The translations under genes were made by a program, and so were the position numbers. From Nitrosopumilus oxyclinae (GTDB taxonomy: Archaea; Thermoproteota; Nitrososphaeria; Nitrososphaerales; Nitrosopumilaceae), in contig NZ_CP026994.1 in the NCBI RefSeq assembly GCF_013407165.1, positions 1,020,187 to 1,084,186 of the forward strand: a stretch of DNA of 64,000 nucleotides, read 5' to 3'. A model generated the notes under the pieces. That model was not told the DNA's origin. It did not search any database and was given only the letters and a program-made list of their open reading frames with translations. Below are positions 3,795-29,776 of the stretch, piece by piece. The first letter of the stretch is position 1, and each line of letters begins with the position of its first letter.

Positions 3795-4013
3795 ATGGCC
3801 GTAATGGAAGTAGTTGAAAAATTAGAAGCATTAAACAAAGAACAAAAGGCAACACTAGAACAACTTCATGAACAATTTATAGATCTACAGGCAGATCCTA
3901 GATTCAAGGGATTACCAATGGACGAATTAGAGAATTTATTTTCAGCATATCTGAAAACTTGGATTAGCACTAATACCGAAATAATTGAAACATTGCTTAA
4001 AGAAGAAAAATAG
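3795..4013 (+). CDS. Conserved hypothetical small helical protein
   Basis: 72 residues, acidic and predicted all-helical; residues about 5-32 have heptad-type spacing of leucines (VEKLEALNKEQKATLEQL) consistent with a short coiled coil. There are no Cys, metal motifs or membrane segments. The ATG at 3795 sits about 65 nt after purM. I do not recognise a family. Confidence 0.6.
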   Translation: MAVMEVVEKLEALNKEQKATLEQLHEQFIDLQADPRFKGLPMDELENLFSAYLKTWISTNTEIIETLLKEEK

Positions 4014-27734: not shown

Positions 27735-27968
27735 ATGACATTATTCTGTAAACAATGCAATGAAAGAAGATTACCAATAGTATTTGCAAAAGACAAACCA
27801 CCATTATGGTTATGTGGAAAATGTGAAAATTTTGCAGATGGGGTTGATGTAATAATTAGAGAAATAACTAAAGAAGAAAAAGAAGACATAAAGAAAAAAT
27901 TAGATGATTTTGAAAATAATACGTCATTAAATGGCGAGAAATTAAAAAGAAGAAAAGGCGTTAATTGA
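27735..27968 (+). CDS. Small zinc-ribbon protein
   Basis: 77 residues with CKQC at 5-8 and CGKC at about 27-30, a four-Cys zinc ribbon, followed by a charged helix and basic C-terminus (KLKRRKGVN). It starts 15 nt after aspS. Role is unknown; nucleic-acid or protein contact via the ribbon is plausible. Confidence 0.65.
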   Translation: MTLFCKQCNERRLPIVFAKDKPPLWLCGKCENFADGVDVIIREITKEEKEDIKKKLDDFENNTSLNGEKLKRRKGVN

Positions 27969-27970
27969 TC

Positions 27971-28225
27971 ATGATTGATCAAAAAGATGCAAAAAAAGTG
28001 GTAGAAGTAATTGGAAACAATTTGATTGGAGTATCACATGATTCTAGTAGTTTTGCTAAATTACCAGATTCATTTTGGGGGTATTTTGCAAGAGGACATG
28101 ACACTAAAGGGACATTCGGAGTCATTGTAACTTATTCTGAAGAAGGTAAAGATGTGGATGAGTTGATAAAAATGTATGAAGAATGGGCTGCAAAAAACAA
28201 AACAAAGTCAGAAGAATCTACTTAG
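27971..28225 (+). CDS. Conserved hypothetical protein
   Basis: About 84 residues from ATG 27971; TTG 27965, overlapping the preceding stop, is the alternative. It has an alpha-beta pattern with VVEVIGNNLIGVSHDSSS, WGYFARGHD and a GTFGVIVTYS strand, then a charged C-terminal helix. It is apparently co-transcribed with the zinc-ribbon gene and aspS. The 3' end overlaps a minus-strand zinc-ribbon mini-gene by 8 nt. No family is recognised. Confidence 0.6.
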   Translation: MIDQKDAKKVVEVIGNNLIGVSHDSSSFAKLPDSFWGYFARGHDTKGTFGVIVTYSEEGKDVDELIKMYEEWAAKNKTKSEEST

Positions 28226-28349
28226 TTTCTTTGAGTAGTTTACGATATCCTGCACATTCTTTACAAATTGGTTTTCCTTTATATTTTGGATTTCCATCAG
28301 TAATTTTTAAGGTCCCAGGAACAATTTTACAAATACAACAATCGGCCAT
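28218..28349 (-). CDS. Small zinc-ribbon protein (43 aa)
   Basis: Minus-strand ATG at 28347-28349 gives 43 residues: CCIC near the N-terminus and CKEC near the C-terminus, with GNPKYKGKP between, a compact four-Cys zinc ribbon. It overlaps the end of the convergent gene by 8 nt. The tight Cys spacing and basic composition support a real gene. Confidence 0.6.
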   Translation of the reverse strand: MADCCICKIVPGTLKITDGNPKYKGKPICKECAGYRKLLKETK

Positions 28350-28579: not shown

Positions 28580-28618
28580 GCAGGTTCAATTATCACTAGA
28601 AGGAAATTAGGATCATGG

Positions 28619-28626
28619 TTAAATAT
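28619..28626 (+). promoter_or_regulatory. Archaeal TATA box (TTAAATAT) for the candidate RNA
   Basis: TTAAATAT matches the archaeal box A consensus. Its centre is about 25 nt before base 28648, the first base of the proposed closing stem, which is the normal archaeal distance from box A to the transcription start. Confidence 0.5.
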
Positions 28627-28647
28627 CATTTTGACGTAATAGATATG

Positions 28648-28745
28648 ACGAGAAACCATTGTTCTGCGTCGTAGAACGATAGGTCTGGAAAACACATCAT
28701 GTTAGGAATACGTCCTTGATTTAACGTGTTTTCCATGTATCTCGT
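28648..28745 (+). ncRNA. Candidate structured RNA, three-way junction, about 98 nt
   Basis: Complementary segments can fold together: a closing stem ACGAGA (28648-28653) with TCTCGT (28740-28745); hairpin A, GTTCT (28661-28665) with AGAAC (28673-28677); and long hairpin B, TGGAAAACAC (28686-28695) with GTGTTTTCCA (28726-28735), which contains ATCA/TGAT and AGGA/TCCT inner pairs. A TATA box is positioned for a start at the first stem base, and a T-rich stretch follows the last stem (TTGTTTT). It lacks 5S rRNA, tRNA and SRP hallmarks I know. Strand is inferred from the promoter. Confidence 0.55.
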
Positions 28746-28762
28746 TGTTTTAAAAATACCCT

Positions 28763-29776
28763 TTAAAGATTATCAGTAATTTGTTTTGTAAATTCACTAG
28801 TACTCTTGTCACCACCAATATCTTTAGTCTTAACGCCAGTTTTTACTAAATTAAAAATAGTAGATTCTAATTTTTGACCAACCTCAATACATTTGGAATC
28901 ATTGTGTTTGTTACCTAACCAATCAAGCATCATCTTCATGGATAACAAGAAAGATGAAGGATTTGCGATGTTTTGGCCTGCAATATCAAATGCTGCACCA
29001 TGAACGGGTTCAAACAAAGCAAAATTATCTCCAATGTTAGCAGCTGGGGCCATACCTAATCCACCAACTACCTGTGAGGATTCATCAGATAAAATATCTC
29101 CAAACAAATTAGTAGTAACTACAACATCAAACTGTTCTGGTTGACGAATTAAATTCATAGCACATGCGTCAACATACATCTCTTCAAATGTAATATCAGG
29201 ATAATCCTTGGAAACATCAGCACATGCCTTTGCAAACATACCATCCGTAATTCGCATCACATTTGATTTATGAACACATGTTACTTTTCGCATAGAGTCA
29301 CGTTGTTTAGCAGTTTCAAAAGCATATTTTGCAATTCTTTTCGAAGCTGCTTCAGAAATTATTCTAAGTGCAACAGATGAATCACCTAGACTGAATTCCT
29401 TACCAATGTAAAGATCCTCAGTATTTTCTCGAACTATCACCATATCAATATCATCACGTAATGCAGGCATGTGTGGGTATGATTTTGCAGGTCGAATATT
29501 GGCATACAAATCAAGCATTCTCCTCAACACCACAATCACATCAGCAGCACTTTCACCTACGGGTGCTTTCATGCATGCATCAGACTGTTTTATCGATTCA
29601 ACTGTTTCATCAGGAAGTGCTTTTCCGGTTTCGGATAGAGCCTGGTCACCAGCAGATAATGTTGTAATTTCAAATTTCAAATCAAGCTTATCATGAATTG
29701 TATTTAAAACAGAAATTGCAGATTCTGATAGTTCAGGACCAATCCCATCACCAGTAATTAACGAAATATTGTACAT
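28763..29776 (-). CDS. leuB: 3-isopropylmalate dehydrogenase (isocitrate/isopropylmalate dehydrogenase family)
   Basis: Beta-decarboxylating dehydrogenase; opening ISLITGDGIGPEL, then the VIVRENTEDLYIG substrate loop, VTCVHKSNVM with catalytic-type Lys, DACAMNLIRQPEQFDVVVTTNLFGDILSDE and the C-terminal GAAFDIAGQNIANPSS. The start is taken at ATG 29776 because MYNISLITG is the usual opening; five more residues are possible from 29791. The same family includes isocitrate and homoisocitrate dehydrogenases, so leuB is chosen mainly because leuA, ilvN and ilvB lie on the same strand within 4 kb. A kinase gene separates it from leuA. Confidence 0.8.
   Translation of the reverse strand: MYNISLITGDGIGPELSESAISVLNTIHDKLDLKFEITTLSAGDQALSETGKALPDETVESIKQSDACMKAPVGESAADVIVVLRRMLDLYANIRPAKSYPHMPALRDDIDMVIVRENTEDLYIGKEFSLGDSSVALRIISEAASKRIAKYAFETAKQRDSMRKVTCVHKSNVMRITDGMFAKACADVSKDYPDITFEEMYVDACAMNLIRQPEQFDVVVTTNLFGDILSDESSQVVGGLGMAPAANIGDNFALFEPVHGAAFDIAGQNIANPSSFLLSMKMMLDWLGNKHNDSKCIEVGQKLESTIFNLVKTGVKTKDIGGDKSTSEFTKQITDNL

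Follow-up and report, generated by a model that had tools for sequence, protein, structure and literature searches.

A conserved three-way-junction small RNA gene in Nitrosopumilus and its relatives, with a candidate antisense seed

Introduction

What is encoded in the A+T-rich gap between a zinc-ribbon-like reading frame and leuB in Nitrosopumilus oxyclinae? The gap lies in a 64,000-nucleotide stretch of contig NZ_CP026994.1 (the window), to which coordinates refer unless stated otherwise. An earlier note on this DNA had proposed an undescribed structured RNA with its own promoter. The analysis described here points to a structured RNA gene of about 105 nt (28646-28751, plus strand) placed between two ordinary genes. 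That a conserved structured RNA lies there is very highly probable, and it would presumably be transcribed as an RNA of about 105 nt; on comparison of the sequences, it is near certain that the locus is a standalone small noncoding RNA gene with its own conserved promoter. What such an RNA may do is a question of far more even balance. The features of the locus are as follows.

28218-28349, minus strand: neighbouring 43-aa zinc-ribbon-like reading frame, divergent from the RNA (from the list of open reading frames; without a Pfam match)
28611-28626, plus strand: predicted promoter, consisting of a BRE-like GATCAT (28611-28616) and the TATA box TTAAATAT (28619-28626), kept in nearly all 34 homologous loci and in other genera
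28633-28638, plus strand: GACGTA, a possible proximal promoter element between the TATA box and the RNA start, conserved in the 34-locus alignment
28646-28751, plus strand: small RNA gene, about 105 nt, recognised from fold z-score, covariation and covariance model matches; predicted start 28647-28649, probable end in the T-rich run
28647-28653, plus strand: 5' strand of the closing stem P1, pairing with 28740-28746 (99.4% of cells paired; 3 independent double changes)
28655-28684, plus strand: P2 hairpin of 13 pairs (92.3% of cells paired; 13 independent double changes)
28665-28674, plus strand: P2 tip TGCGTMGTAG, within P2, with a 3-nt loop at 28668-28670; nearly invariant
28686-28735, plus strand: P3 arm, with a 10-bp stem 28686-28695/28726-28735 (86% of cells paired; 6 independent double changes)
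28697-28704, plus strand: loop motif TCATGTTA (RNA form UCAUGUUA), the proposed antisense seed, invariant in 72 of 72 aligned sequences, having been part of the pattern used to collect sequences, and invariant also across the 34 blastn-derived loci
28704-28716, plus strand: P4, a small and weak apical hairpin AGG/CCT, 28704-28706/28714-28716 (75.7% of cells paired; 0 independent double changes)
28740-28746, plus strand: 3' strand of P1, on the same basis as its 5' strand
28745-28751, plus strand: T-rich tail TTGTTTT, presumed archaeal terminator, present in most homologues
28763-29776, minus strand: neighbouring leuB-type isopropylmalate/isocitrate dehydrogenase, convergent with the RNA (Pfam PF00180, E 1e-100)

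Fold, strand and promoter

The segment 28647-28747 has a fold energy of -37.3 kcal/mol, against -20.4 +/- 3.3 for 200 dinucleotide shuffles (z = -5.1), none of which folded as low, which makes chance hairpins unlikely; the whole 144-nt interval first singled out gives z = -3.8. Because the reverse complement of the same segment folds equally well (z = -5.4), the strand was assigned from the promoter and the T-rich tail and not from the energy.

The closed three-way junction that had been proposed was borne out, with P1, P2 and P3 all covarying. Its closing stem (ACGAGA/TCTCGT, 28648-28653/28740-28745) was found as described and is lengthened by a G-U pair, 28647/28746. The first hairpin exists, though not with the extent given to it (28661-28677), the true arm being 28655-28667/28671-28684 with 13 pairs and a bulged A at 28681. 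In the second, the perfect 10-bp stem held, whereas the inner pairs are weak (76% of cells pair) and, with 0 double changes counted on the tree, P4 is therefore undemonstrated.

The TATA box lies about 26 nt upstream of 28647-28649, which agrees with the claim that it is placed for a start at the stem, and both it and GATCAT are kept in homologues. This predicted BRE/TATA pair accompanies the RNA at the right spacing to unrelated loci, as would be expected of an own promoter and of the independent transcription unit of a trans-acting sRNA. The T-rich run expected after the last stem is likewise present, and a bacterial-type terminator scan found nothing. A regulon sharing the promoter was rejected, the RNA's own site being the only one within 3 mismatches in the genome.

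Covariation

In a MAFFT alignment that took no account of the structure, the predicted pairing holds in 90.4% of cells, compared with 40-56% for slid controls, and the covariation score is 0.220 against 0.064-0.129. Since the shuffles of the covariation tool ignore relatedness, compensatory changes were also counted on a tree, which yielded 22 double changes distributed over the stems as listed above; the counts are approximate because the tree rests on a 120-column alignment. Slid pairings gave 0-5 such changes, and 200 random re-pairings a mean of 2.6 and a maximum of 8. A G-C to A-U double change in P1, for example, is carried by 15 of the 72 sequences and arose in 3 independent events. The covariation that the earlier note had proposed to look for in relatives is thus strong, and the fold is conserved across genera. 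Stem sequences diverge among homologues while the P2 tip UGCGUMGUAG and the loop UCAUGUUA stay fixed. The pattern of substitutions indicates that selection acts on the three-way-junction fold, and a conserved, covarying structure of this kind is what would be looked for in a trans-acting antisense sRNA.

Distribution and genomic context

Against 60 related genomes, blastn recovered the element from the majority of Nitrosopumilus genomes, with a second copy in several, and further Nitrosopumilus, Nitrosarchaeum and Nitrosotenuis records came from scanning the genomes of named species with a sequence pattern. Of 300 genomes from the class, 71 gave a match to a covariance model built from 72 sequences, with E-values as low as 1e-24 in relatives; all 71 lie in five genera of the organism's own family (one genus by a weak match only), with usually 1 and at most 4 copies per RNA-bearing genome. 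The model found no homologues outside the Nitrosopumilaceae among the 300 genomes, in a scan whose negatives are approximate, its filters being strict; when 39 negative genomes were rescanned less strictly, 0 full-length homologues and six weak matches emerged, some of the latter plausible variants. The 25 non-thaumarchaeal pattern matches yielded 0 that score with the covariance model. The distribution, judged from the 300-genome scan and the relaxed rescan together, is therefore patchy, and complete Nitrosopumilus genomes without the RNA include G096, G124 and G009. In N. maritimus SCM1 a single copy lies at 630613-630722, minus strand, of the 1,645,259-bp chromosome.

Several diverged loci were observed alongside the family. 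Weak model matches at L355:1501-1604, L356:1501-1604 (minus) and L357:1501-1584 (plus) resemble variant three-way-junction RNAs with a similar closing stem (ACGAGGAA/TTCCTCGT or AACAAG/CTTGTT), lack the invariant loop motifs, and are possibly sister families with other loops; the L357 variant retains a GATCA/TTAAATA promoter. At L171:1501-1604 (genome G023) stands an apparently decaying copy in which the promoter and TCATGTTA are retained and the closing stem and P2 are damaged. Two diverged copies lie on the same strand about 2 kb apart at L058:1887-1994 and 3905-4013.

Across 79 RNA copies the neighbours vary (the AspRS/leuB region, a methyltransferase region, a helicase region and others). 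The earlier note had the RNA running toward the leuB 3' end, and the convergent position is correct, with 11 bp between the RNA interval and the leuB stop codon on the opposite strand; the direction is nevertheless incidental, since most homologues adjoin other genes, and the tie to leuB falls. The spread of the RNA over many unrelated sites, with as many as 4 copies in one genome, favours action in trans. A small-protein family with a member encoded at window 27965-28225 accounts for twenty of the neighbour proteins, located on one side of the RNA or the other, so that this region recurs near the RNA. The window gene encodes an 86-aa (or shorter) protein without a Pfam match, and its family lies beside about a quarter of RNA copies, upstream or downstream of the RNA depending on the lineage; the first L058 copy also adjoins a member.

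Relation to known RNAs

The earlier note had recognised no matching RNA family, and the comparison of the window and nine relatives with 4227 Rfam models agrees: no family reached its curated gathering threshold (Rfam 15) at the window locus or in the relatives, the best chance match over the RNA scoring 15.5 bits where 70 would be required. The RNA is a new family of a known general kind, the small intergenic RNA. Archaeal trans-acting intergenic sRNAs include sRNA162 and sRNA154 of Methanosarcina and those of haloarchaea, which share with the present RNA an own promoter, a stable fold, exposed loops and a proposed pairing with mRNAs near the translation start. The RNA at 28646-28751 differs from them in its closed three-way junction, its two invariant motifs and its restriction to the Nitrosopumilaceae, and no match in sequence or structure was found.

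Yfr103 of picocyanobacteria is similar in having diverging paralogues per genome, a conserved structure and targets that are unknown or partly known, but it is bacterial, about 300 nt long and unrelated in sequence (PMC5069720). Tan1 of marine group II Euryarchaeota, compared here by description, is likewise a structured marine archaeal ncRNA of unknown function and is abundant, but measures 229 nt and belongs to another phylum (PMC5069720). For N. limnia, one paper mentions a 'conserved noncoding RNA with 93% identity to N. maritimus' without specifying it further (PMC3043068), which is too little detail to equate it with the RNA at 28646-28751. No publication describing this RNA was found in the open-access literature, most subscription papers lying outside the reach of the search; nor, within the open-access literature, was a paper describing a regulatory small RNA in ammonia-oxidising archaea.

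Proposed mode of action and its rivals

The reading favoured here, at about even odds (0.5), is that of a trans-acting small RNA with UCAUGUUA as its antisense seed. The RNA would be transcribed as a stable species of about 105 nt acting in trans, P1 and the junction would protect its ends and hold P2 and P3, and P3 would expose UCAUGUUA for pairing with mRNAs. Most simply, the motif would cover the AUG start codon and so block initiation, its complement UAACAUGA containing a start codon, and the invariant P2 tip might serve as the binding site of a partner protein. In predicted folds UCAUGUUA is partly to mostly unpaired, with a mean unpaired probability falling from 0.79 in its 5' part to 0.38 at its 3' end.

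The main rival to antisense action, possible though rather doubtful, is a structured RNA acting through protein binding, as a scaffold, sponge or 6S-like regulator with the P2 tip and UCAUGUUA as contact sites and without an mRNA target. The invariance of UCAUGUUA fits this equally well, as does the presence of two invariant motifs within an otherwise diverging fold; the seed complement TAACATGA also shows no genome-wide excess in the organism's own genome (75 sites, where the reversed pattern has 80), and multi-copy RNAs that titrate proteins are known. Yet the 79 copies adjoin no conserved partner gene, and the P2 tip is mostly paired, with a loop of only 3 nt. A mobile or selfish noncoding element, small and dispersed by transposition or by viruses, of which the RNA would be a by-product, could account for the patchy presence, the several copies per genome and the varied sites, but is unlikely: phage and plasmid records gave no RNA match, the 11 pattern matches among viral contigs included 0 that score with the covariance model and are not homologues, a linked integrase was not noticed among the neighbours, and compensatory changes within an intact promoter-RNA-tail unit argue for selection on the RNA itself.

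Still less can be said for a guide RNA of the H/ACA or C/D type directing RNA modification, which is very improbable. The P3 stem, internal loop and upper stem superficially resemble an H/ACA pocket, but inspection by eye of the window RNA and the alignment revealed neither an ACA box 3' of P3 nor C (RUGAUGA) or D (CUGA) boxes, and the right-hand side of the loop, variable both in sequence and in length, is not guide-like. No Rfam family matches either, and the seed-complement loci of the genome include no rRNA match and five tRNA matches, none overlapping a site. That the RNA lies close to the stop codon of the oppositely oriented leuB might suggest a cis element of that gene, an antisense or 3' UTR structure; most homologues, however, stand beside other genes with the promoter conserved, and cis action on leuB, rejected by this synteny, is exceedingly improbable. 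Practically discounted is the reading of chance hairpins or a short protein-coding gene. The gap is A+T-rich and a 19-codon frame runs from 28614 in N. oxyclinae, a frame that the earlier note had named as a possible explanation of the sequence; against this stand the fold z-score and the covariation, and the frame's ATG recurs in 2 of 34 homologues. Whichever frame is taken, at most 12 of the 72 sequences keep it open across the RNA, and length differences among the sequences are not restricted to multiples of 3.

Candidate targets

Should the RNA act by antisense pairing, the best single target candidate would be slaA, the main S-layer gene, through its short-leader mRNA. It is one of five genes of the genome with a likely start codon in TAACATGA, the others being an Lrp-type, a phosphatase and a cupredoxin-type gene and L249; site conservation was compared for slaA, the Lrp-type gene and the phosphatase. 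The identity of slaA is supported by a match to PDB 8c8k, and the primary S-layer protein of N. maritimus is Nmar_1547 (PMC11153153). Its mRNA probably starts a few bases before the AUG, with a TATA box about 30 nt upstream. Among RNA-bearing genomes examined, 32 of 32 keep TAACATGA at the slaA start codon (UAACAUGA in the mRNA), whereas in those without detected RNA the site is intact in 30 of 43 and lost in 13 (Fisher p = 0.0004, uncorrected for phylogeny, which confounds the comparison). Because 30 of the 43 RNA-free genomes retain it, slaA must keep the site for other reasons too. The predicted UCAUGUUA:slaA duplex comprises 8 bp (-8.1 kcal/mol), and among 213 start regions compared for pairing, a set in which the site is over-represented, slaA comes 4th. 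A second complementarity, UACGUCCU with AGGACGUA, was given less weight because its order does not allow a single duplex and Nitrosotenuis-type RNAs lack it.

The three other named genes were rejected as conserved targets: the site is lost in close relatives for both the Lrp-type gene and the phosphatase, and the cupredoxin-type gene occurs in 1 of 36 relatives searched.

The first 45 or so coding nucleotides of slaA, with AATAAC before the start, are conserved nearly base for base, synonymous positions included. This conservation spans the Nitrosopumilaceae, including genera without the RNA (L253, at C1:1381136 minus in the organism's own genome; homologues L254-L266 and L285-L353).

Given the retained site in RNA-free genomes, the wider conservation of slaA and a duplex of 8 bp, slaA is regarded as a lead, with the antisense reading left at the odds given above; as a target of the RNA it is weak, at roughly one in six. 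A bolder proposal, tentative and fairly unlikely, would make the RNA a regulator dedicated to post-transcriptional control of the S-layer, which is the ammonium-concentrating coat of marine ammonia oxidisers; UCAUGUUA would mask the almost leaderless slaA start and lineage-specific paralogues would tune slaA or other targets. Ammonia-oxidising archaea count among the ocean's most abundant cells (PMC11153153), and an RNA regulating the S-layer or another abundant gene would, if real, provide a first handle on post-transcriptional control in them; a covariation-backed family with a copy at a known coordinate in N. maritimus can be checked in existing RNA-seq data. As a last observation, the second S-layer paralogue of N. 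maritimus (L402; G098 C1:1101400-1101900) starts with AATAACATGTACAACG, which keeps 7 of the 8 bases of the seed complement.
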